Shown: one piece after another, positions 24,195 through 62,115 of the stretch
Position numbering within the stretch: the stretch's first letter is position 1
How the letters are laid out: every line of letters begins with the position of its first letter
Origin: Flavobacterium glaciei
GTDB lineage: Bacteria; Bacteroidota; Bacteroidia; Flavobacteriales; Flavobacteriaceae
Reading direction: 5' to 3'
DNA length: 64,000 bases
NCBI RefSeq assembly: GCF_003350545.1
Contig: NZ_QQBA01000003.1
Coordinates: 1 to 64,000 of the forward strand
Program-made: the position numbers and the translations under genes
Notes under the pieces: model-generated
What the model was told of the DNA's origin: nothing
Databases searched by the model: none
Seen by the model: the letters and a program-made list of their open reading frames with translations, nothing else

Positions 24195-24707
24195 TTATCC
24201 CTTTTTGGGTGCTTTGTACAACGGAACGGCAGAGCACGCTTCGCCATACATAATACTTCGTGCAAAAGGTTGCAAGTAATGCGCTGCTAATACATAAGCC
24301 CTCATAGGAACCGGTTTTCTGGAGCATCCTTTTATGATAATTGGCTTATCTTTATAAACCGAGTAGTCTATTTTAGGCAACAATTCTTCATAGAGTGAAG
24401 CGTCTAAATCTTCTAAAGTTCCATTGATGATTTTCTTTGCAAACGGCGCTAATTGAATCGCAACCAAAATGGAAGCCCAAGCCGGAACTATAGCATCTGT
24501 ACTGCAATGAATAGCCACAAATTGATCTTGGTATTGTGACCAATCATGATTTTTTAATTCCTCTCTAAAGTCTTTTTCTTTCAATAAAAAACCTTCTAAA
24601 AGCCATTTCGAAATATCGATTTGCGTACGAATCCCTTTTGGATAATAATCTTCGAGGTCGAAAACTTCCAAAACACTATTTGCAACTTTATTTATTATTT
24701 CTTCCAT
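24195..24707 (-). CDS. DUF2480 family protein
   Basis: This cytoplasmic protein of 170 aa has the DUF2480 signatures IDISKWL, VAIHCSTDAIVPAWASILVA and IIKGCSRKPVPMRAYV. Two conserved Cys (in HCSTD and KGCS) are visible and could be functional. In Bacteroidetes this family recurs in suf loci, as here next to the DUF59 and sufE genes. I infer a link to Fe-S cluster biogenesis from context only. Confidence 0.85.
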   Translation of the reverse strand: MEEIINKVANSVLEVFDLEDYYPKGIRTQIDISKWLLEGFLLKEKDFREELKNHDWSQYQDQFVAIHCSTDAIVPAWASILVAIQLAPFAKKIINGTLEDLDASLYEELLPKIDYSVYKDKPIIIKGCSRKPVPMRAYVLAAHYLQPFARSIMYGEACSAVPLYKAPKKG

Positions 24708-24715
24708 TTTTGAAG

Positions 24716-24785
24716 TCTTAAAGTCGAAAGTCGAAAGTCATAAAGTCAACTATTTTGAGACTTTATGACTTTTGACATTAGGACT
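24716..24785. repeat. Inverted repeat of AAAGTC motifs
   Basis: GTCTTAAAGTCGAAAGTCG... is mirrored by ...GACTTTATGACTTTTGAC, filling the gap between the DUF2480 and DUF59 genes. It could fold as a long imperfect hairpin in the mRNA. Confidence 0.65.
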
Positions 24786-24788
24786 AAT

Positions 24789-25112
24789 TTAAAGCATTCC
24801 CAATTCTAATTTAGCTTCTTCGCTCATTAAATCTTTGCTCCAAGGCGGATCAAAAGTAATTTCTACTTCAGCATCTTTTACATTCTCTAATGATTTTACT
24901 TTTTCTTCCACTTCTCTTGGTAAACTTTCTGCAACCGGGCAGTTTGGAGAGGTAAGTGTCATCAAGATTTTTACTTCGTAATCAGTATTGACCATTACGT
25001 CATAAATTAATCCTAATTCGTAAATATCTACAGGAATCTCCGGATCGTATATAGTCTTTAATATTTTTACGATTGATTCTCCTAACTCGGTGGTGTCTAT
25101 TTCTTGTGTCAT
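24789..25112 (-). CDS. DUF59 / MIP18 family Fe-S assembly protein (SufT-like)
   Basis: This 107-aa single-domain protein begins with IVKILKTIYDPEIPVDIYELGLIY and contains TLTSPNCPVAESLP, whose Cys is the conserved reactive residue of the family. VEITFDPPWSKDLMSEEAK near the end is also characteristic. Members assist Fe-S cluster maturation, and the gene lies in the suf cluster between sufE and DUF2480. The length is normal and the protein is cytoplasmic. Confidence 0.92.
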   Translation of the reverse strand: MTQEIDTTELGESIVKILKTIYDPEIPVDIYELGLIYDVMVNTDYEVKILMTLTSPNCPVAESLPREVEEKVKSLENVKDAEVEITFDPPWSKDLMSEEAKLELGML

Positions 25113-25133
25113 TTTTTTAATTTTTAATTTTTA

Positions 25134-25850
25134 TTATTCGTAAATAACTGATATTAATGTGGTTGTGTCAAATAAGGAAACAATTTCACTAACTCCAAAA
25201 TTAGTATTTGAAAATATAGTACCAGGGGTAATTTTATTGTTGTACTGTTTATTTAGAGTGACTGTATTGGTGTAATAACCTTTATTGGTTTGAAAAGTGT
25301 ATGTTCCTAAGCAGTTATTGCCATTTATAAAATTGATTTTTTTTAATTGTGAATCAAATGATTCTGAATAATTTTTCCTCGGATAGTTTGTATCAATTTG
25401 TTTTGAATTGTAATCAACAATAATATTGAATAGGAATGTATTATAATTACCACCAAAATATTTTTTGAAAATTTCGGTTAAAGCTTTATTTCCTCTCTTG
25501 AAGAATAGTTTCGTTTTATTCTTTTTCAAATCATAGGTTCCTTCTATAGTGTTAGTGGTATGGTATAAAGTACTTTCTAGTATTTTTTTATCTTCGTAAT
25601 TAAAATTTTTAATTTCAATAAATCCAACAATTTTTGTCGAATCAAGAGGACTTATTACTTTTGAAAATTTTAATTTTGGGTATTGAAATTGGAGTAATAA
25701 TGTGTCTGCATACACTTTGTCATTCTCAATGAAAAAGTTTGATTTTTGTTCATAAACAAATTTTATTTTTGAATATTTTTCCGGTATTACTGTTTGTGAG
25801 AAAACAATATTACAGGCCAAAATTATCATTGTAAAAAATATTTTTTTCAT
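25134..25850 (-). CDS. Hypothetical secreted protein
   Basis: The start at 25850 gives 238 aa with a signal peptide (MKKIFFTMIILACNIVFSQ). An upstream in-frame ATG at 25892 would overlap sufE and add a polar leader. I do not recognise the family. The mature part is rich in Lys, Asn, Thr and aromatic residues, with few motifs. It is more AT-rich than the surrounding suf genes and probably entered the cluster later, between sufE and the DUF59 gene. Confidence 0.72.
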   Translation of the reverse strand: MKKIFFTMIILACNIVFSQTVIPEKYSKIKFVYEQKSNFFIENDKVYADTLLLQFQYPKLKFSKVISPLDSTKIVGFIEIKNFNYEDKKILESTLYHTTNTIEGTYDLKKNKTKLFFKRGNKALTEIFKKYFGGNYNTFLFNIIVDYNSKQIDTNYPRKNYSESFDSQLKKINFINGNNCLGTYTFQTNKGYYTNTVTLNKQYNNKITPGTIFSNTNFGVSEIVSLFDTTTLISVIYE

Positions 25851-25863
25851 ACGAATATCGAAA

Positions 25864-26283
25864 TTAATTCTGCGTGTTGAACGCCAATGCATACATTTTT
25901 ATGTTTTTTATCATCGATACCAAACCGTTAGCGCGAGTGGGTGATAAGTGTTCTTTCAAACCTATTTCATCAATAAAATTCATGTCGGCTTCGAGAATAT
26001 CAGACGCTTTTTGATTGGAAAAAGCACGAATTAATATCGCAATAATCCCTTTAGTTAAAATGGCATCGCTATCGGCAGTAAAAACAATTTTGTCATCCGT
26101 TTGTTCTCCTTGCAACCACACTTTAGACTGGCAGCCTTTAATCAGATTGTTTTCGGTTTTGAATTCTTCTTTGATTAAAGGAAGTTTTTTCCCTAATTCG
26201 ATGATGTATTCATAACGCTCCATCCAGTCGTCAAACATGGAGAACTCGTCAACAATTTCTTCTTGTATTTCTTTAATTTTCAT
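25864..26283 (-). CDS. sufE: SufE family cysteine-desulfurase activator
   Basis: This 139-aa protein contains LIKGCQSKVWL, where the Cys accepts persulfide sulfur from SufS. DADAILTKGI-like SDAILTKGIIAILI and HLSPTRANGLVSMI are also conserved. It stimulates SufS and relays sulfur to SufB for Fe-S cluster assembly in the cytoplasm. sufS lies about 480 bp upstream on the same strand, separated by a small lipoprotein gene. Confidence 0.95.
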   Translation of the reverse strand: MKIKEIQEEIVDEFSMFDDWMERYEYIIELGKKLPLIKEEFKTENNLIKGCQSKVWLQGEQTDDKIVFTADSDAILTKGIIAILIRAFSNQKASDILEADMNFIDEIGLKEHLSPTRANGLVSMIKNIKMYALAFNTQN

Positions 26284-26301
26284 ACTATGCTGAATTTATT
26301 T

Positions 26302-26739
26302 TCAGTTTTTTTCTTTAGCTAATAAAGTTATCGTATTCACGAATTTCTTAATTTCTTTTGGTGGAAAACCATGATCAAAACTATTCGTTTCATAGTTTTT
26401 ATCTTTGATGATGATTTTCAAATTGGCAATAGCCGCACCGTCATGAAAACGTTTTTCTGTTGGTGCTTTAAATTTGGATAAACTATCTAATTCCACTTTT
26501 TTAAAACAATCTAGTAACTCTTTCCAGTCTGCATCCGATATTTTTGTTGGTATCGGTTTATCATTTCCATCTCTGTCTTTTGACACCGTCAACATCTGAT
26601 TTTTCACTGTTATTTTTTGATAAAAACCTCTAGTGTTGGCTGTGTATTCAATAGCAGCGGTTTCAATATCTTGCGCTTTTGCGCTATCACAACCGTTGCC
26701 TAGGAAAATAGTCAGAAATAATAAGGATAGAATTTTCAT
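26302..26739 (-). CDS. Hypothetical lipoprotein between sufS and sufE
   Basis: I use ATG 26739, giving 145 aa with signal MKILSLLFLTIFLGNGC and a lipobox-like LGNGC. An upstream in-frame ATG at 26796 would overlap the sufS end and hide the signal. I do not recognise a named family. DADWKELLDCFKKV and KNYETNSFDHGFPPKEIKKFV are the most distinctive stretches. Its place inside the suf cluster is probably only co-transcription. Confidence 0.75.
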   Translation of the reverse strand: MKILSLLFLTIFLGNGCDSAKAQDIETAAIEYTANTRGFYQKITVKNQMLTVSKDRDGNDKPIPTKISDADWKELLDCFKKVELDSLSKFKAPTEKRFHDGAAIANLKIIIKDKNYETNSFDHGFPPKEIKKFVNTITLLAKEKN

Positions 26740-26758
26740 GTGTTGATATTTGTGATTT

Positions 26759-27973
26759 TTAGGACAACATGAGTTGCGCTCTTTTAATAGCTTCAACCAT
26801 TACGTCAATTTCTTCTTTGGTATTATAAAAGGCAAATGACGCTCTTATAGTTCCAGGAATTTTAAAGAAATCCATAATGGGTTGTGCACAATGATGACCT
26901 GTTCGTACGGCTATTCCTAATTTGTCAATTATGGTGCCAATGTCGTACGGATGAATACCTTCAATATTAAACGAAATTACGGAAGTTTTTTCTTTGGCGG
27001 TACCAAAAATCTTTAAACCTTCAACTTCTAATAATCGTTTCGTTCCGTATTCTAATAATTCCTTTTCTTGCTGTTGAATGTTGTCAAAACCAACTTCATT
27101 CATATAATCCACAGCGGTTCCTAGTACAATTCCTCCGGCAATATTTGGTGTTCCAGCTTCAAATTTATGAGGCAACTCTGCATAAGTAGTTTTCTCGAAA
27201 GTCACTTCCTTAATCATTTCGCCTCCACCTTGATAGGGCGGTAATTTGTTCAACCACGCTTCTTTTCCGTATAAAATTCCAGTTCCTGTTGGTCCACATA
27301 TTTTATGTCCTGAAAATACATAAAAATCACAATCTAATTCCTGAACATCTGGTTTTAAATGTGGAACAGCTTGCGCTCCGTCAATCAAAATTGCCGCGCC
27401 AACTGCATGTGCTTTGTCAATCATATATTTAATTGGATTGACAGTTCCCAATGCATTCGAAATATGATTTACGGTAACAACTTTGGTTTTATCCGAAAGT
27501 AATTTGTCATACTCTGACATAATCAATTCGCCATCAAGATTCATGGGAATCACGCGCAAAGTTGCTCCCGTTTTCTCGCATAACATTTGCCAAGGCACAA
27601 TATTGCTGTGGTGTTCCAATGCAGAAACTAAAACTTCATCGCCTGGTTTCAAAATCGAAGCAAATCCATTAGTAACTAAATTTATTCCATGCGTTGTTCC
27701 CGAAGTAAAAAGCACTTCATAAGCAAACTTAGCATTAATGTGATTTTGAATTTTCCCACGAGAAACCTCATACGCATCGGTTGCTAATTGACTCAACGTG
27801 TGAACACCACGATGGATATTAGCGTTGATTTCCTGATAATATTTTGAAATTGCATCAATCACCACTTGTGGTTTCTGCGAAGTGGCTCCATTGTCAAAAT
27901 AAACCAATGGTTTTCCGTTTACTTTTTGCGAAAGTATAGGGAAGTCGGCTCTAATCTTATTGATATCTAACAT
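26759..27973 (-). CDS. sufS: Cysteine desulfurase SufS
   Basis: This PLP-dependent group II cysteine desulfurase of 404 aa has the PLP lysine in FSGHKICGPTG. The catalytic Cys lies in VRTGHHCAQP, the SufS form rather than the IscS form. It removes sulfur from cysteine as a persulfide and passes it to SufE and SufB. It is separated from sufBCD by two plus-strand genes, so in this genome it needs its own promoter. Confidence 0.96.
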   Translation of the reverse strand: MLDINKIRADFPILSQKVNGKPLVYFDNGATSQKPQVVIDAISKYYQEINANIHRGVHTLSQLATDAYEVSRGKIQNHINAKFAYEVLFTSGTTHGINLVTNGFASILKPGDEVLVSALEHHSNIVPWQMLCEKTGATLRVIPMNLDGELIMSEYDKLLSDKTKVVTVNHISNALGTVNPIKYMIDKAHAVGAAILIDGAQAVPHLKPDVQELDCDFYVFSGHKICGPTGTGILYGKEAWLNKLPPYQGGGEMIKEVTFEKTTYAELPHKFEAGTPNIAGGIVLGTAVDYMNEVGFDNIQQQEKELLEYGTKRLLEVEGLKIFGTAKEKTSVISFNIEGIHPYDIGTIIDKLGIAVRTGHHCAQPIMDFFKIPGTIRASFAFYNTKEEIDVMVEAIKRAQLMLS

Positions 27974-28235
27974 TTTTCGGCTTGTTTTTAATGTTTGTAT
28001 TGGTCCATTTGAACAATATAAGCAAACATTTTTTTTGAGAAACTAATTTGGAATTAGCTCTTCATTATTTAGAATTTTTCTAAATACAAAAGTAGTGAAA
28101 TTGGAATTAATTTTTGGCAAACACTTGTTAATAAAAGTTATTACTATTCACGATTTAGAAAAATATAATACAACTTCAAATCTTACTTTTTTGTAAATCG
28201 GAAGATTTTATGAAACAATTTCTCTTTATAAATTT

Positions 28236-28300
28236 AACCATTAAGAAATTAAGAAAAATTAAGGTATTAGTTCTTAATGAAACTTAATTTCTTAATGGTT
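28236..28300. repeat. Inverted repeat AACCATTAAGAAATTAAG
   Basis: AACCATTAAGAAATTAAG (28236-28253) and its exact reverse complement (28283-28300) flank 29 bp. It lies in the divergent gap between sufS and the serine hydrolase gene. A shorter relative (AAACCATTAAGG) occurs near 32170. Otherwise the 424-bp gap (27974-28396) contains no gene. Confidence 0.8.
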
Positions 28301-28396
28301 TAAAAAAATTTGTTCACAGAAAAATGATTTTTCAGTAGTACAATGTATTTCAAGAATGTGGTTCTTTTTTATTAAATTGCTTCAAATTAATTTTCT

Positions 28397-29743
28397 ATGA
28401 AAAAAATCTTCAAGCTCGTTGTTTTTGCGTCTTTAATCGGAATCTTTTACTTGGGGTTCACCACTTATCCAAAACTGGATTTAATTTCTGGCTTTTCGGC
28501 CAAAAGTATGGCTTCAGGACATTTTATTGATAATCGCTCGCAGGAAATGATTGAGAAGGGCGACAATGATATCGACATGATTGATTTGGCCAAAAACAAT
28601 ATTGAAGAAGCCGGAAAGTTTGCCGTTGCTTCAGTTTATGGTTTGAAAGAGCGAAAAGCAATTTACCGCGAGGGTTTGGGAGCCACTTTAATCAATGATG
28701 ATTTTGATGTTTCAAAACCGTATTTAGTTCCCAAAAGAACAAAATTGAATAACAATTTACCTTTTCCGTTTGGAAATAACGAACCTAAAGACACCATTTT
28801 TGCTAATGTTGATTATGCTAAATTGAATGCGGCTGTCGCCAATGCTTTCGATAAAAAAGGAGAATTGAAAAAGAGAACGCGTTCCCTTTTAGTGATTTAT
28901 AAAGATAAAATTATTGCCGAAAAGTATGATACAGGTTTCGATAAAAACAGTAAAATTCTGGGTTGGTCAATGACAAAAAGTATCACGAGCGCTATGTTTG
29001 GAGTTTTGGAAAAACAAAGAAAATTTGACATTGATGATCCTGCTCCAATTCCAGAATGGGCAAATGACAACCGAAAATTGATAACCACAAGTGATTTGCT
29101 GCACATGAATTCCGGTCTACAATGGGTAGAGGATTACGCTTCTATATGTGATGCTACAAAAATGCTTTTTCAAGCCGAAGACATGACTCGCGCGCAACTT
29201 GAGAAACCGGCAGAATATAAACCCAATATGCGATGGAACTACTCCTCTGGAACTTCTAATTTGCTTTCGGGAATTTTGCGTAAGCAGTTCAAAACGCATC
29301 AGGAATATTTAGATTTTTGGTACAGCGCTTTGATTGATAAAATAGGAATGAACTCTATGGTTATCGAAACCGATATGGCGGGAAATTATGTGGGTTCATC
29401 TTACGGTTGGGCTACAACGAGGGATTGGTCTAAATTTGGGTTGTTGTATTTACATAACGGTAATTGGAACGGTGAACAAATTTTCAACGAAAGTTGGGTA
29501 AAATACACTGTAACTCCTACCAATAGATCTGAGGGAAGATATGGTGGTCATTTTTGGCTTAATGCCGGCGGATCATTCCGTGATGTGCCTAGAGATATGT
29601 ATTATTGCAGCGGTTTTCAGGGGCAAATGGTGGCGATTATTCCATCACTTGATTTAGTAGTTGTAAGAATGGGATTGAAAGAAGATCCTGAATTCGACTT
29701 TAATGGAATGTTGAGAGATATAATTGAAAGTGTGAAGAAATAA
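28397..29743 (+). CDS. Serine hydrolase, class C beta-lactamase / penicillin-binding-like
   Basis: This 448-aa envelope protein has an N-terminal hydrophobic signal or anchor (about 5-23). The SxxK motif appears in GWSMTKSITSAMFG and the YxN-type motif as WNYSSGTSN. The third motif is probably GGHFWLNAGG near residue 385. The family covers esterases, D-peptidases and beta-lactamases, and nothing here identifies the substrate. It is a plus-strand gene wedged between sufD and sufS, which are both on the minus strand. Confidence 0.9.
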   Translation: MKKIFKLVVFASLIGIFYLGFTTYPKLDLISGFSAKSMASGHFIDNRSQEMIEKGDNDIDMIDLAKNNIEEAGKFAVASVYGLKERKAIYREGLGATLINDDFDVSKPYLVPKRTKLNNNLPFPFGNNEPKDTIFANVDYAKLNAAVANAFDKKGELKKRTRSLLVIYKDKIIAEKYDTGFDKNSKILGWSMTKSITSAMFGVLEKQRKFDIDDPAPIPEWANDNRKLITTSDLLHMNSGLQWVEDYASICDATKMLFQAEDMTRAQLEKPAEYKPNMRWNYSSGTSNLLSGILRKQFKTHQEYLDFWYSALIDKIGMNSMVIETDMAGNYVGSSYGWATTRDWSKFGLLYLHNGNWNGEQIFNESWVKYTVTPTNRSEGRYGGHFWLNAGGSFRDVPRDMYYCSGFQGQMVAIIPSLDLVVVRMGLKEDPEFDFNGMLRDIIESVKK

Positions 29744-29748
29744 TATTC

Positions 29749-29925
29749 ATGATAAAGAATAAAGTTATACAATCAGTTTTAATGATAATTGGAGGTTGGT
29801 TTTTAATAGGTTTAGGTTATTCTACGAATTTAGGTTACTCAATAATAAATACATTTTGTTTCTTGGGAGGTCTTGTGTTGTTTTTTATAGGAATTATAAT
29901 GTTTATTATTGCAGTAAGAGACTAA
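29749..29925 (+). CDS. Small two-helix membrane protein
   Basis: A 58-aa frame starts 5 bp after the serine hydrolase stop with MIKNKVIQSVLMIIGGWFLIG. It ends FIGIIMFIIAVRD and contains two hydrophobic helices separated by a short polar turn. The spacing and the terminator directly after it suggest an operon with the hydrolase. Family unknown. Confidence 0.6.
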   Translation: MIKNKVIQSVLMIIGGWFLIGLGYSTNLGYSIINTFCFLGGLVLFFIGIIMFIIAVRD

Positions 29926-29935
29926 AATTTAACCG

Positions 29936-29974
29936 AAAAGGGCACAAAGTTTAGAAAAAAACCTTGTGCCCTTT
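29936..29974 (+). terminator. Hairpin after the small membrane protein gene
   Basis: AAAAGGGCACAAAG and CCTTGTGCCCTTT pair around an A-rich loop. The right arm continues into CTTTGTGCGTAAATC, a phrase common in flavobacterial intergenic repeats, so it may double as a repeat element. Confidence 0.55.
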
Positions 29975-30007
29975 GTGCGTAAATCTTTGCGATTTTTGTG
30001 TTAAAAA

Positions 30008-31324
30008 CTACAAATCAAATCCCAATTTCACCCCTAATTTTGTGGCGATGATTTTGGTAATTCGTTGTTTTAATTCTGGTATTTTGATGTTTTCTATAAC
30101 GGCATTCGAGAATGCATACATCAATAACGCCTTGGCTTCTTTTTTAGGAATTCCGCGTTGTTGCATGTAGAACATTGCCGTTTCGTCTAATTGTCCAACG
30201 GTACAACCGTGAGAACATTTTACGTCATCAGCAAAAATCTCTAATTGCGGTTTAGCATTTATTGTCGCTTTGTCGCTCAATAAAATATTATTGCTTTTTT
30301 GGAACGCATTCGTTTTTTGAGCGTCTTTTTCTACGTATACTTTTCCGTTGAAAACACCTGTAGAGCGATCAGCATAGATTCCTTTATAATCTTGGAAACT
30401 TTCGCAATTTGGAGCCGCATGTTTCACTAATGTATAATGATCTACGTGTTGTTTTTCACCAATAATCGTGATTCCGTTTAACGTACTTGTCAATCGTTCT
30501 CCAAAATGATAAAAATTCAAGTTATTTCTCGTTAAGTTTCCTCCAAAAGAGAAGGTGTGAACCGAAACGTGACTTTCTTTTTGTTGAGAAACGTAGGTGT
30601 TATCTATTAAATTAGCTTCAAGCGTATCGTTTTGGATTTTGTAATAATCAACTATAGCACGTTTTTGAGCAAAAATCTCGGTAACAGAATTCGTTAACAC
30701 TGGATTTTCGTTTAAACTTTGATGACGCTCAATAATTTGGACATGTGAATTTTCACCCACAACCACTAAGTTTCGTGGTTGAACCAAAAGAGCCGCTTCG
30801 TTTCCTGTTGAGAAATACATGATTTCAATAGGCTTGTCTGCTACTTTGCTTTTTGGAATGTTGATATACGCTCCTTCAATAGCAAAAGCTGTATTCAAGG
30901 AAGTTAAGCTTTCTTCTTTGTTGGCAATTTGGTTAAAATATGCATCAATAACCATTTTGTATTTTGGTTTTGTCAATGCCGATGACATCAAGCAAACATC
31001 AATTCCTTCGTGTGTGGTTGACGATAAATGTGAACTGAAAACACCATCAATAAACACTACTTTATAGGTGTCTATTTCGTGTAAAAAATATTTTTTTACA
31101 TGGTTGAATTCAACTGCATTTTCTTGTTTAGGAAAAACGGTAAAGTCATTTTTTAAGATGGCGTTTAGCGAAGTGTATTTCCAAGCTTCGTCTTTTTTGG
31201 TTGGGAAACCTTTATTTTCAAAGTTTTTTATGGCGGCAGTTCTCACGTCATGAAGTTCAGAATGAACATCGACGCGCTCTTCGAAAGCCATAAAAGACGA
31301 TAGTAATTTTTCTTTTAATTCCAT
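30008..31324 (-). CDS. sufD: Fe-S cluster assembly protein SufD
   Basis: This 438-aa protein is a paralogue of SufB and forms the SufBC2D scaffold. Signatures are GVFNGKVYVEKDAQKTNAFQ, NNILLSDKATINAKPQLEIFADDVKCSHGCTVGQLD and MQQRGIPKKEAKALL. The conserved His/Cys-containing CSHG segment belongs to the SufD/SufB beta-helix core. It lies downstream of sufC in the order sufB-sufC-sufD. The 81-bp gap to sufC is filled by a repeat. Confidence 0.96.
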   Translation of the reverse strand: MELKEKLLSSFMAFEERVDVHSELHDVRTAAIKNFENKGFPTKKDEAWKYTSLNAILKNDFTVFPKQENAVEFNHVKKYFLHEIDTYKVVFIDGVFSSHLSSTTHEGIDVCLMSSALTKPKYKMVIDAYFNQIANKEESLTSLNTAFAIEGAYINIPKSKVADKPIEIMYFSTGNEAALLVQPRNLVVVGENSHVQIIERHQSLNENPVLTNSVTEIFAQKRAIVDYYKIQNDTLEANLIDNTYVSQQKESHVSVHTFSFGGNLTRNNLNFYHFGERLTSTLNGITIIGEKQHVDHYTLVKHAAPNCESFQDYKGIYADRSTGVFNGKVYVEKDAQKTNAFQKSNNILLSDKATINAKPQLEIFADDVKCSHGCTVGQLDETAMFYMQQRGIPKKEAKALLMYAFSNAVIENIKIPELKQRITKIIATKLGVKLGFDL

Positions 31325-31331
31325 TTTTATA

Positions 31332-31400
31332 TTGTTTAAAGTTTAAGGTTTAAAAGTTTAAAGTTATCTCGAGGCAACTTTAAACTTTAAACTTCAAACA
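31332..31400. repeat. Inverted repeat of GTTTAAAGTTT motifs between sufC and sufD
   Basis: TTGTTTAAAGTTTAAGG... is mirrored by ...AACTTTAAACTTTAAAC around CTCGAGG. Similar elements lie at 48676-48716 and 62036-62110, so this is a dispersed family in the genome. Confidence 0.7.
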
Positions 31401-31405
31401 AAATT

Positions 31406-32158
31406 TTAAGCTTCTTGTTCTTGTTTAATCCAGTCGTATCCTTTTTCTTCCAGTTCGTGTGCTAGTTCTTTTCCGCCGGATTTTACAATTTTTCCGTTGT
31501 AAAGTACGTGAACAAAATCAGGAACGATATAATCTAATAAACGTTGGTAGTGTGTAATTACTACGATGGCGTTTTTGTCGCTTTTTAGTTTATTAACCCC
31601 ATTAGCAACAATTCGTAACGCATCAATATCCAATCCAGAATCAGTTTCATCAAGAATAGCCAATTTTGGTTCTAGCATTGCCATTTGGAAAATTTCGTTA
31701 CGTTTTTTCTCTCCACCAGAAAAACCTTCGTTTAGAGAACGAGACAAAAATTTACGGTCGATTTCTAATAATTCTGATTTTTCACGGATCACTTTTAGCA
31801 TTTCATTTGCAGGCATTTCTTCCTGACCGTTTGCTTTACGCGTTTCGTTGATAGCGGTTCTCATGAAGTTCGTAACTGAAACTCCTGGAATTTCAACCGG
31901 ATATTGGAACGAGAGAAAAACACCTTTGTGTGCTCTTTCTTCTGGTGCCAATTCCGAAAGGTCTTCTCCGTCTAAAGAGATTTCTCCTCCGGTTACTTCG
32001 TAGTTTTCGTTTCCTGCAATGATAGACGCCAGTGTACTTTTTCCAGCACCGTTTGGTCCCATAATCGCGTGAATTTCTCCTGCTTTTACTTCAAGATTAA
32101 TTCCTTTTAATATTTCTTTGTCACCTATCGAGGCGTGTAAATTTTTTATTGATAACAT
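31406..32158 (-). CDS. sufC: Fe-S assembly ATPase SufC
   Basis: This ABC-type ATPase of 250 aa has Walker [10 protein letters not shown]. The signature loop is [12 protein letters not shown] and Walker B is [12 protein letters not shown], followed by an H-loop ITHYQR. SufC drives conformational change of the SufB-SufD scaffold during cluster assembly. The gene sits between sufB and sufD in the expected order. Confidence 0.97.
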
Positions 32159-32219
32159 GTTTCTATTTTTAAACCATTAAGGTATTAAGATTCATTAAGT
32201 TTTGTTTTGTAATCAGAGA

Positions 32220-33668
32220 TTACCCTACACTTCCTTCTAACGAAATTTCTAATAATTTTTGTGCTTCTACTGCAAATTCCATTGGTAACTTATTCAATAC
32301 ATCTTTACTGAAACCGTTTACGATTAAAGCAATTGCTTTTTCAGTTGGAATTCCACGTTGGTTGCAATAGAAAACTTGGTCTTCGCCAATTTTACTTGTC
32401 GTAGCCTCATGTTCTATTTTTGCCGATGGATTTTTACTTTCGATGTAAGGGAATGTATGTGCGCCACAATTGTTCCCCATTAATAACGAGTCACATTGCG
32501 AAAAGTTTCTGGCGTTGTCTGCGTTTGGTGAAATTCGGACTAAACCTCTGTAACTGTTCTGTGATCTTCCGGCAGAAATTCCTTTAGAAATAATGGTCGA
32601 TTTAGTGTTTTTACCTAAATGAATCATTTTGGTTCCAGTATCGGCTTGTTGGAAATTATTGGTAACAGCAATTGAATAAAATTCTCCTGTTGAATTATCT
32701 CCTTTTAAGATAACAGAAGGATATTTCCAAGTTATCGCTGAGCCAGTTTCTACTTGTGTCCAAGAAATTTTTGCGTTTTTCTCGCAGATTCCTCTTTTAG
32801 TCACAAAGTTGAAAACGCCACCTTTTCCTTCTTTGTTTCCAGGATACCAGTTTTGTACAGTTGAATATTTGATTTCTGCATCGTCTAAAGCGATTAGTTC
32901 CACTACAGCAGCGTGTAATTGATTTTCATCACGACTTGGAGCCGTACAACCTTCAAGGTAAGAAACATAACTGCCTTCGTCAGCAACTAATAATGTTCTT
33001 TCAAATTGTCCTGTTCCTGCTTGATTGATTCTGAAATAAGTCGAAAGTTCCATTGGGCAACGAACGCCTTTTGGAATATAACAGAAAGATCCATCAGAGA
33101 AAACTGCTGAATTTAGCGCCGCATAAAAGTTGTCTTTTTGCGGTACAACTGTTCCTAAATATTTACGAACTAATTCTGGATGCTCCTTGATGGCTTCAGA
33201 AATACTCATGAAGATAATTCCTTTTTCGCCTAATGTTTTCTTAAATGTAGTCGCTACAGAAACTGAATCGACTACGATATCCATTGCTACATTATTCATC
33301 ATTTTTTGCTCATCGACAGAGATACCTAACTTTTTATACATTTCTAAAAGTTCCGGATCTACATCGTCCAATGTTTTATTGGGATCTACCGCTTTTGGAG
33401 CTGAATAATAAGAAATAGCCTGAAAATCAGGTTTAGTGTAATGCACATTTGCCCATTCCGGTTCTGTCATTTGCTCCCAAGCACGAAAAGCCTCTAGACG
33501 CCAATCCGTCATCCATTGTGGCTCTCCTTTTTTGTTCGAAATTGCGCGAACGATATCTTCATTTAAACCAATAGGAAACGTTTCTGATTCTAATTCGGTG
33601 TAAAATCCGTATTCGTATTCTTTAGTTTCGAGTTCGATTTTTAAGTCGTCTTCTGTATATTTGCTCAT
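32220..33668 (-). CDS. sufB: Fe-S cluster assembly protein SufB
   Basis: This scaffold subunit of 482 aa carries [45 protein letters not shown] and [19 protein letters not shown]. The last contains the conserved cysteine region used for cluster building. It accepts sulfur from SufE and assembles the cluster with SufC and SufD. It starts the sufBCD run. Directly upstream lies a four-helix-bundle gene that separates it from sufA. Confidence 0.97.
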
Positions 33669-33672
33669 TCTG

Positions 33673-33712
33673 ATTTAAAGATTTAAAGATTTAAAAATTC
33701 AAAAATTGAAAA
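33673..33712. repeat. AT-rich flank of the four-helix gene (left)
   Basis: GATTTAAAGATTTAAAAATTC-like sequence here is an imperfect inverted match to 34085-34124. The two copies bracket the four-helix-bundle gene. Confidence 0.5.
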
Positions 33713-34081
33713 TTAAACTTTATTATTTGTATCTAAATATTTAATAAAATTAGAAAGGTTTTGAGAAATTTCAATAGTTAAATTATAACTTTTTTGAATT
33801 TCTTCGTGATTGCAAAAACCTAACTCTCTGGATAATATCAACATATTTCTAACCTCAGCACAACTGCCTTTGGAGATTTTTAAATATCTTGTAAATTGTC
33901 TATTATTGTTGTATTCTGAACCTTCTGCAATGTTATTTGTTATTGAAACTACTGCTCTTTTTATTTGGTCCTTAAAACCAAATTCTTTTTCCAAGGATTT
34001 ATTATTTAATAATTCAAAAACTAATTTAGTTAAGACAATACCTTTTTTATGGACATCAAATTCTTCAAATGATTTTGTCAT
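33713..34081 (-). CDS. Four-helix-bundle protein (23S rRNA intervening-sequence family)
   Basis: This 122-aa protein is predicted to be almost entirely alpha-helical. The family signature is KRAVVSITNNIAEGSEYNNNRQFTRYLKISKGSCAEVRNML. Members are encoded in 23S rRNA intervening sequences or scattered in genomes, with no settled function. Here the gene is inserted between sufA and sufB, on the operon strand, and is flanked by inverted AT-rich repeats. This suggests that it moved in as a unit. The suf mRNA would have to read through it. Confidence 0.9.
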   Translation of the reverse strand: MTKSFEEFDVHKKGIVLTKLVFELLNNKSLEKEFGFKDQIKRAVVSITNNIAEGSEYNNNRQFTRYLKISKGSCAEVRNMLILSRELGFCNHEEIQKSYNLTIEISQNLSNFIKYLDTNNKV

Positions 34082-34084
34082 ACT

Positions 34085-34124
34085 ATCATTAATCTTTTAA
34101 TTTTTAAATTTTTCAATCTTTAAA
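34085..34124. repeat. AT-rich flank of the four-helix gene (right)
   Basis: ATCTTTTAATTTTTAAATTTT with CAATCTTTAAATT is the imperfect inverted counterpart of 33673-33712. Confidence 0.5.
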
Positions 34125-34454
34125 TTAAAGAGAGAAACTCTCTCCGCAACCACATGTTCTATTGGCATTAGGATTATTGAAAACAAACCCTTTACCATTA
34201 ATTCCTCCTGAGAATTCTAATATTGTCCCAGCTAAGTACAGAAAAGATTTTTTTTCAACAGCGATAGTGATATCGTTGTCTACAAAAATTTTATCGTCTT
34301 CGTTTTTTGTTTTATCAAATTTTAAATCATAAGACAATCCAGAACATCCGCCGCTTTTTACACCCACTCTTACATAGTCGATTGCAGCGTCAAAACCATC
34401 ATCTTTCATTAAATCGATGATTTTTTTTCTTGCTGTGTCAGAAACTTTTATCAT
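34125..34454 (-). CDS. sufA: HesB/IscA-type iron-sulfur carrier (SufA-like)
   Basis: This 109-aa A-type carrier has the three conserved Cys: one in GVKSGGCSGLSY and two in the terminal CGCGESF. It would receive or deliver Fe-S clusters from the SufBCD scaffold. It is the first gene of the suf cluster, with a -7 box 31 bp upstream. Sequence alone does not separate SufA from IscA or ErpA. The symbol is based on context. Confidence 0.92.
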   Translation of the reverse strand: MIKVSDTARKKIIDLMKDDGFDAAIDYVRVGVKSGGCSGLSYDLKFDKTKNEDDKIFVDNDITIAVEKKSFLYLAGTILEFSGGINGKGFVFNNPNANRTCGCGESFSL

Positions 34455-34484
34455 AGCTTATATTGATTTTGTCTAAATTAAGGA

Positions 34485-34492
34485 CAAAGATA
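34485..34492 (-). promoter_or_regulatory. -7 promoter box of the suf operon
   Basis: On the minus strand TATCTTTG fits the TAnnTTTG consensus and lies 31 bp before the sufA start. The -33 element is weak. Confidence 0.6.
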
Positions 34493-34589
34493 GTGTATAA
34501 AATGCTTTTTCCATAATTGATAACATTTTTATAACCAATGCAAAAATAGAAAAAAGCTATTTGAAACCTTAAAAAGCATTTGAATTCCC

Positions 34590-34597
34590 TAACTTTG
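34590..34597 (+). promoter_or_regulatory. -7 promoter box of the metallo-hydrolase gene
   Basis: TAACTTTG lies 23 bp before ATG 34620. No TTTG is found at the ideal 19-bp spacing. Confidence 0.5.
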
Positions 34598-34619
34598 AAA
34601 CGGCTCAAAAAACAAAAAC

Positions 34620-35480
34620 ATGAAACTATATCCCATTGAAACTGGAAATTTTAAACTCGACGGCGGCGCAATGTTTGGCGTGGTGCCAAAAACCATTTGG
34701 AACAAAACCAATCCCGCTGATGAAAACAATTTGATTGATATTGCGGCACGCTGTTTATTGATTGAAGACGGCAACCGATTAATTTTGATTGATACAGGAA
34801 TGGGAAACAAGCAATCCGAGAAATTTTATGGGTATTACTCGCTTTGGGGAACACATTCCATGGATAAATCATTAGGTAAATATGGTTTTCATCGGGATGA
34901 TATTACCGATGTTTTTATGACGCATTTGCATTTTGACCATTGTGGCGGTAGTGTACAATGGAATGCTGACAAAACAGGATACGAACCCGCTTTTAAAAAT
35001 GCTAAATTCTGGTCTAATGAAAATCATTGGGAATGGGCGACAAAACCTAATGTCAGAGAAAAAGCATCTTTTTTATCTGAAAATATTTTACCGATGCAGG
35101 AAAGCGGACAGCTGAATTTCATTCAAAGACCGGAAGGAGATTTTCTTGCAACTTCAGAGTTGGGTTTTGGTATTTTCTTTGCTGATGGGCATACCGAAAA
35201 GCAAATGATTCCGCACATTAAATATAAGGACAAAACAATCGTCTTTTGCGCTGATTTATTGGCGACAGCCGGACACATTCCTGTTCCGTATGTGATGGGA
35301 TACGATACCAGACCTTTATTGACGATGCCAGAAAAAGAAAAATTCATGAATGCGGCCGCAGATAATAATTACTATTTGTTCTTAGAACATGACGCACATA
35401 ATGAAATCATTACTGTACAAAGAACAGAAAAAGGGGTACGACTGAAAGAAGTTTATAAATGTGACGAAGTCTTAACTTAG
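34620..35480 (+). CDS. MBL-fold metallo-hydrolase
   Basis: This 286-aa cytoplasmic metallo-beta-lactamase-fold hydrolase has motif HLHFDHCGG (HxHxDH). Further metal ligands appear in FADGHTEKQ and FCADLLATAGH, with a final His in FLEHDAHNE. The early strand RLILIDTGMG is typical. This branch resembles lactonase or glyoxalase II relatives, but the substrate is unknown. It is divergent from sufA and has its own -7 box. Confidence 0.92.
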   Translation: MKLYPIETGNFKLDGGAMFGVVPKTIWNKTNPADENNLIDIAARCLLIEDGNRLILIDTGMGNKQSEKFYGYYSLWGTHSMDKSLGKYGFHRDDITDVFMTHLHFDHCGGSVQWNADKTGYEPAFKNAKFWSNENHWEWATKPNVREKASFLSENILPMQESGQLNFIQRPEGDFLATSELGFGIFFADGHTEKQMIPHIKYKDKTIVFCADLLATAGHIPVPYVMGYDTRPLLTMPEKEKFMNAAADNNYYLFLEHDAHNEIITVQRTEKGVRLKEVYKCDEVLT

Positions 35481-62034: not shown

Positions 62035-62035
62035 A

Positions 62036-62110
62036 GTTTGTTTAAGGTTTAAAGTTTCAAGTTGTTGGATTAAGAACTTGGAACGTTAAACTTTTAAACT
62101 TTAAACAAAT
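62036..62110. repeat. Inverted GTTTAAAGTTT repeat
   Basis: GTTTGTTTAAGGTTTAAAG is mirrored by CTTTTAAACTTTAAACAAA in the gap between moxR and DUF58. It is the same family as 31332-31400. Confidence 0.7.
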
Positions 62111-62115
62111 TAAAA

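Follow-up and report, generated by a model that had tools for sequence, protein, structure and literature searches.

We analyzed positions 1 to 64,000 of contig NZ_QQBA01000003.1 of Flavobacterium glaciei (the window, 64,000 nt), in which the sufA and sufB genes are separated by one gene for a four-helix-bundle protein of the 23S rRNA intervening sequence (IVS) type (PF05635/TIGR02436 family; hereafter IVP), framed by two inverted arrays of short repeats. Our favored reading, which we hold with modest confidence, is that this 456-nt stretch is an IVS-like mobile unit carried in an operon, and that it has non-autonomous, gene-less derivatives. A first-pass annotation had noted the gene and its borders; beyond it, we found that the arms are tandem arrays of short units and that such arrays frame most relatives of the gene. 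Below, G000 is the genome containing the window (3.14 Mb), other G-numbers are relatives, and L-numbers are the loci that we read.

The position of the IVP gene between sufA and sufB was confirmed (Table 1), as were its imperfect inverted AT-rich borders: positions 33661-33707 and 34091-34137 form 47-nt arms that are 81% complementary. The unit occupies the entire gap from the sufA stop codon to the sufB start codon. Its protein matches both family profiles over the full domain (PF05635, 99.7 bits against a cut-off of 33.8; TIGR02436, 93.6 bits against 24). Direct octamer copies of GATTTAAA lie on the sufB side, and the period-8 arrays of the two arms give 29/32 and 24/32 matches. The 64-kb window has three array calls of at least 23/32, and these arms account for two of them; ten order-2 Markov simulations gave none. 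The inverted-arm score of the unit is 50; only 2 of 224 ordinary genes reach 30. The RNA of the unit (33669-34124, minus strand) is predicted to fold so that its two ends pair (10 + 15 bp, with interruptions) at -82.2 kcal/mol, with a z-score of -3.0 and none of 100 shuffles predicted to fold as well. The only open reading frame (ORF) inside the unit is the IVP gene, with no transposase, and the ORF list of the window has no transposase or reverse transcriptase adjoining it. A sub-threshold Pfam match of the protein to KwaB (PF16162, 20.4 bits against 26.3) probably reflects a shared helical pattern. An Rfam scan of 24600-34700 gave weak microRNA-family matches only, far below gathering scores, and an IMG/VR scan with the IVP gave no relative. 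A single-sequence AlphaFold2 model of the protein had a mean predicted local distance difference test score of 47 and was uninformative.

We next consider the arms of all 66 IVP copies in 13 genomes: G000 and 12 others, nine chosen as single-contig assemblies and three as near relatives. Of the IVP copies, 41/66 scored 30 or more for inverted arms, compared with 2/224 ordinary genes (Fisher P = 5.5e-30). The thresholds were viewed after the data, and the outcome was the same at all five tried (24 to 40). AT-rich inverted flanks equally common at ordinary gaps, which would have spoken against the first-pass annotation, did not occur. Arrays on both sides (at least 20/32) were present at 28/66 IVP copies and 4/224 ordinary genes. 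By site cluster, 27/42 held at least one armed unit, or 25/42 when one member was counted per cluster; these clusters slightly overcount distinct sites (L001 and L068 are the same site). The arms are tandem repeats of 7-9 nt whose unit varies from locus to locus: 8 nt at the window element and 7 nt at most others, alike in kind of array and not in sequence. Arms matched within a locus and seldom across loci (84/4,290 cross pairs). G000 itself carries seven copies of the family. A search of its other four-helix genes for the same flanks had been suggested; the flanks of the seven copies look alike in kind but differ in sequence, each locus having its own repeat, with units that include, read by eye, CAAAGNNN, YYTTAGT, AGTGGTC, GAATTAC and AGTTATG. 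Internal stop codons in L001 (G000:C2:184719-185030) and L077 (G044) show that decaying IVP copies exist alongside intact ones. In an early flank comparison of 37 loci, only 5 lay above the 99th percentile of the cross pairs; orthologues from the same site had been counted in that cross set, which accounts for the low number. We also considered a general G-rich 5' arm (30 positive, 7 negative and 4 zero among 41 gene-bearing units), and dropped it because only 14/27 gene-less sufA-sufB gaps were positive.

The gene and its arms are co-inherited across sites. For these pair tests we excluded five short or broken IVPs (L001, L109, L077, L078 and L125). Among pairs of IVPs at different sites scoring at least 180 bits, 12/15 had arms in common, against 32/1,764 of all other pairs. 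The window element and L110, at trpD-trpC of G017, encode proteins that are 77% identical and have arms in common; L003 (nuoF-nuoG, G000) and L091 (sufC-sufD, G010) are related IVPs with the same arms. The closest copy pair within one genome is L076/L087, at two sites in G075 (97.5% identical). In orthologous units, each arm fits its own partner better than the partner from another species (33.8 versus 27.8; 23/32 pairs, which are non-independent). These common arms support the earlier proposal that gene and flanks move as one unit.

Comparison of occupied and empty sites supports it further. The sufA gene is present in 100/101 genomes of the genus, and we read the sufA-sufB gap in 30 of these 100. 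The relatives do not all carry the gene at this place, an outcome that would have counted against the proposal: the gap holds an IVP gene in 1/30, G000 alone. G007 holds a remnant that retains the last codons and the 3' arm almost unchanged but has lost most of the gene along with the 5' arm. The gap is clean in G044 (18 nt) and G017 (20 nt), and in 26 genomes it is gene-less and 69-133 nt long. Similarly, nuoF-nuoG holds an IVP in 2/16 genomes, with a clean gap of 17-18 nt in three, and trpD-trpC in 1/13, with a gap of 1-3 nt in two. Sites are gained and lost. The description of the borders as clean is too strong: at nuoF-nuoG of G000 (L003, contig C23) the array replaces the last nuoF codons and the short gap, giving NuoF a new C-terminus relative to its relatives. 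Insertion there was therefore not a simple cut-and-paste addition. The comparison of filled and empty nuoF-nuoG sites showed replaced target bases and no target duplication.

Orientation suggests how the gene is expressed. Genes on both sides are co-directional with the IVP gene at 57/66 copies, and the upstream gene at 64/66; none of the 66 is antisense to both neighbors, compared with 20/225 ordinary genes. The same holds in two wider samples, described below: 18/25 loci of the phylum sample have co-directional neighbors on both sides and a single locus is antisense to both, and in the named-species set the counts are 52/56 for Bacteroidota and 12/20 for others, with one antisense. A model in which the gene has its own promoter was rejected, as promoter-like sites were no commoner than in shuffles and none was on the gene strand. 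Together with the sense orientation, this suggests that the gene is expressed as part of the host operon. The protein is under purifying selection: the ratio of nonsynonymous to synonymous substitution rates is 0.15 between the window IVP and its closest relative at another site, and 0.00-0.13 in 12 other pairs.

Such selection would also be expected of a domesticated operon gene, in which the IVP, by binding the flanking stem, controls the operon in which it lies (suf mRNA, for instance) and is kept by host selection. The sense position in the core operons suf, nuo and trp agrees with this explanation, as does the conservation of some IVP sites across species. We nevertheless consider it very unlikely. 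The unit is sporadic at each of the three gaps counted above, one and the same site holds unrelated IVPs in different species (L085, L101 and L105 versus L113), and no theme unites the host operons that we saw.

Gene-less inverted arrays provide a second line of comparison. At least three lie in the window, each between co-directional genes (Table 1). When the array at 24708-24788 was compared with the 66 arm sets, L099, L091, L098 and L003 scored 58, 56, 46 and 37 against a median of 18; these four are the entire IVP clade of L003. A gene-less array in G035 (L216) likewise matches exactly the members of this clade among the 66 arm sets. We compared two arrays of G044 in the same way: the four best matches of the first include three members of a single IVP clade, and for the second L123 is the one clear best match. 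Clade-matching gene-less copies therefore exist for some repeat families. The AGTTTAA unit occurs 65 times in G000 against 22 for its reversed control, with an excess also in five relatives and none in the IVP-free genomes G072 (17/14) and G040 (8/10). A further copy of this hairpin family lies in another operon gap of G000 (L136:19483-19553). Relatives have such gene-less arrays at sufA-sufB; of the GATTTAAA family, to which the window unit belongs, we saw no gene-less copy elsewhere within the 64-kb window, and a genome-wide search was not made. Two generalizations were dropped. The first, a hairpin array in every sufA-sufB gap, held for the 16/27 gaps that beat the best of 20 shuffles, with the shuffles scanned more coarsely; the second, that IVP-free genomes have no hairpin arrays, would have relied on 0 in 18 co-directional gaps of G072, which are too few. 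A GC-rich inverted repeat of a different kind is present in the sufA-sufB gaps L015, L020 and L030, which are among those 16, and at nuoF-nuoG in L195.

Table 1. Features of the window discussed in the text
Feature	Coordinates	Strand	Remarks
IVP gene, intact, 122 aa, start ATG	33713-34081	-	PF05635 and TIGR02436 matches
5' arm, degenerate octamer array, from sufA stop codon to IVP gene	34082-34124	-	pairs with 3' arm in predicted RNA
3' arm, octamer array, from IVP gene to sufB start codon	33669-33712	-	units are GATTTAAA on + strand
sufA, host gene upstream of unit	34125-34454	-	ORF call
sufB, host gene downstream of unit	32220-33668	-	ORF call
Gene-less inverted array of AGTTTAA units between sufC and sufD; folds as a long RNA hairpin	31325-31405	-	z -6.8
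Gene-less inverted array, GTCATAAA unit; best matches are four members of one IVP clade	24708-24788	-	z -6.0
Gene-less inverted array, AGTTTAA unit, co-directional gap	62035-62115	+	z -6.1

The gene-less arrays could be read in the opposite direction, with the hairpin coming first. Arrays would then be host features of operon gaps, serving mRNA stability or processing and growing by slippage; IVP genes would enter their loops, and the arms would belong to the site. Gene-less hairpin arrays are indeed common in operon gaps, including sites that elsewhere hold an IVP, and G044 keeps its arrays though its single IVP is broken. rRNA IVSs, moreover, are described in the available part of PMC4990558 as having taken the place of tetraloops. 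We judge this order of events unlikely, because similar IVPs at different sites have arms in common far more often than other pairs do. The repeat unit at nuoF-nuoG in the filled genomes G000 and G035 also differs from that in the gene-less gaps of most relatives, and it recurs around a related IVP at sufC-sufD in G010. The lack of an AGTTTAA excess in the IVP-free genomes points the same way but is not decisive, as units differ by genome.

Another enzyme might instead move the hairpins, either a Y1/RAYT transposase or a reverse transcriptase, with the IVP as passenger or accessory of a conventional transposon or repetitive extragenic palindrome (REP) system. The architecture resembles that of REP-RAYT systems, and among the 13 genomes Y1 matches occur in 10 and RVT_1 matches in 9. 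The IVP family is also related to Avd, the partner of the reverse transcriptases of diversity-generating retroelements (DGRs), according to the accessible text of PMC10053308. We give this explanation very little credence: G000 has no PF01797 match, G041 and G095 have 6 and 10 IVPs and no RVT_1 match, and the window unit has no transposase or reverse transcriptase as a neighbor.

We propose the following working model for an IVP-borne mobile unit. The unit would be promoterless, consisting of one IVP gene framed by two inverted short-repeat arrays, and would ride sense in a host operon and be expressed from the operon transcript. In RNA the two arrays would pair, forming a long stem with the gene in its loop, like that of 23S rRNA IVSs. 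Each IVP clade would have its own repeat family, and gene-less hairpins of that family would be non-autonomous derivatives, arising by internal deletion or by copying in trans. The IVP protein may recognize its own arms, either as RNA or as single-stranded DNA, and promote their spread or copying, and RNase III-type processing at the stem may make insertion tolerable, so that host genes survive.

Several points weigh against this model. We infer binding of the arms by the IVP, transcription of the unit and processing of the stem, and movement would likewise be read from comparison of sites rather than from an observed event. We found no target-site duplication and no exact insertion end at the sites compared, which limits the claim that gene and flanks move as one unit. 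Gene-less inverted arrays in ordinary operon gaps limit it too, since AT-rich inverted arrays are not exclusive to the IVP gene. Among the 66 IVP copies, 25 are below the arm threshold, and the arrays of L076/L087 do not align in register. Some arrays in the wider samples (L150 of the phylum sample and the plasmid locus L333) are direct and not inverted in order. None of the 66 IVPs is a clear partner for the AGTTTAA arrays (best scores 31-32), and the unit shows no excess in the IVP-bearing genomes G044, G050, G095 and G041. Finally, just 8/25 phylum loci outside the genus pass the arm threshold.

Occurrence beyond the genus suggests a widespread, little-noticed mobile unit, as IVP genes with repeat arms of their own are found in very different bacteria. 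Records named as Flavobacterium have the same gene sites as G000. PF05635 is present in 99/101 genomes of the genus and 116/148 of the phylum; the loci in our genus, phylum and named-species samples were best-scoring matches, not random ones. Of 80 loci taken from named species, 76 were usable (L246, L255, L256 and L296 were dropped for broken frames). Arms were present at 32/56 loci of Bacteroidota and 12/20 of other lineages, compared with 1/110 neighbor genes, and the armed loci include other Bacteroidota, Mesorhizobium, Acidobacteriota and others. Most of the 20 non-Bacteroidota loci are metagenome-assembled genomes (MAGs); the isolates L290 (Occallatibacter) and L309 (Mesorhizobium) have arms, with perfect GGCAGTA heptamers on either side of the gene in L309, and the isolate L271 (Cerasicoccus) has none. 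In L305, titled as a Limnohabitans MAG, the start of the downstream gene resembles the Flavobacterium site of L067/L083. This may be a misbinned contig; the non-Bacteroidota count without it is 11/19. On plasmids, we read 14 of 24 matches (13 cyanobacterial and one Gemmatimonadota). The arm threshold was passed by 7/14 loci and 2/25 neighbor genes, and 13/14 had a strong array next to the gene on one side or both; GGGAACA and GGGAGTA are among the heptamers.

Two kinds of location in these samples are of separate interest. On the cyanobacterial plasmids L326, L328 and L333, the IVP gene is flanked either by cas6 and cas4 or by cas10/cmr2 and cmr3. The available portion of PMC3936711 notes that cas loci can contain IVP genes, and this association may be plain operon insertion. 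The same caution extends to other IVP genes within operons, which may be insertions rather than functional partners. In L139, L154 and L163, from three other families of Bacteroidota, the IVP ORF, at approximately positions 1450-1850 of each locus in gene orientation, is nested in a long gene that stays open in another frame across it, so that the insert is read as two proteins simultaneously. The long gene of L139 looks like a DNA methyltransferase by eye, and heptamer arrays flank the insert in L139 and L163.

A broader proposal, which we put forward only tentatively, is that IVP genes and heptamer or octamer arrays form one bacteria-wide class of mobile element, each IVP recognizing its own repeat family and spreading it as sense hairpins inside transcripts. 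The scattered heptamers of Cyanobacteria, Xanthomonas and other bacteria and the rRNA IVSs would be among its products, and neither a known transposase nor an element-encoded reverse transcriptase would move them. To our knowledge, the widely annotated four-helix IVP family has no established role, and we know of no accepted source for the short heptamer arrays of several bacterial groups. The link between IVP and array described here joins this family with those arrays, and gives rRNA IVSs a common counterpart outside rRNA. It also makes a direct prediction, that each IVP protein should bind its own repeat. Our literature search found no paper whose title or first lines of abstract connect the IVP family with short-repeat arrays, in coverage that mostly leaves out subscription journals and is weak evidence of absence.

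Heptamer arrays are the first known system to which the unit can be compared. Cyanobacteria have short tandem heptamer repeats known as STRRs. Xanthomonas has an IVP, xcc0516 (PDB 2gsc), whose XCC name suggests X. campestris ATCC 33913 as its strain. The accessible parts of two papers describe heptamer arrays, in Xanthomonas of GGGAATC and in Nostoc of GGGGA(C/T)T, with 70 cases of arrays paired in inverted order in X. campestris ATCC 33913 (PMC4692102), and TAACTGA heptamers in Beggiatoaceae, Cyanobacteria and Bacteroidetes (PMC4679880). Like the arms described here, these are tandem short units in gaps, sometimes in inverted pairs, and heptamer arrays frame the IVP genes of cyanobacterial plasmids; their unit is 7 nt against 8 nt at the window element, whose array is of a similar kind but another sequence. 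Unlike our proposal, those parts of PMC4692102 and PMC4679880 make no link to IVP and propose no mobile unit around this protein. DGRs are similar in that Avd is related to the IVP in fold and family (PMC10053308, in the text available). The window unit differs in having no reverse transcriptase ORF beside it; the sole RVT_1 match of G000 is on a different contig, C30, and no search aimed at template or variable repeats was made.

REP-RAYT/REPIN systems consist of a gene between inverted palindrome-type repeats, plus gene-less copies of that repeat scattered elsewhere. The unit is similar in having a gene between inverted repeats. Gene-less copies that match an IVP clade are clear for the GTCATAAA family; none of the window unit's own GATTTAAA family was seen elsewhere in the window, and the AGTTTAA family is partnerless. 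It is unlike them in that its protein is a four-helix bundle and not a Y1 (HUH) transposase, of which the PF01797 search of G000 gave no match, and in that its ends are arrays of 7-9-nt units. The 23S rRNA IVS of Coxiella burnetii is closer in anatomy. As described in the available portion of PMC4990558, it is 428/444 nt long, carries an S23p ORF and has a 28-bp terminal stem; rRNA IVSs are processed by RNase III, and the Coxiella ORF is decaying. The window unit has the same protein family, a similar length (456 nt) and one S23p-type ORF closed by a predicted terminal complementary stem; both lie sense in a host transcript, and neither has a known mobility enzyme of its own. The unit differs in lying between the protein genes sufA and sufB rather than in rRNA, in encoding an IVP under purifying selection, and in belonging to a genome with several different units (seven in G000), short-unit tandem arms and gene-less derivatives. 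Located outside rRNA and lacking a Y1 enzyme, it combines the anatomy of an rRNA IVS with gene-less copies of the REP kind.
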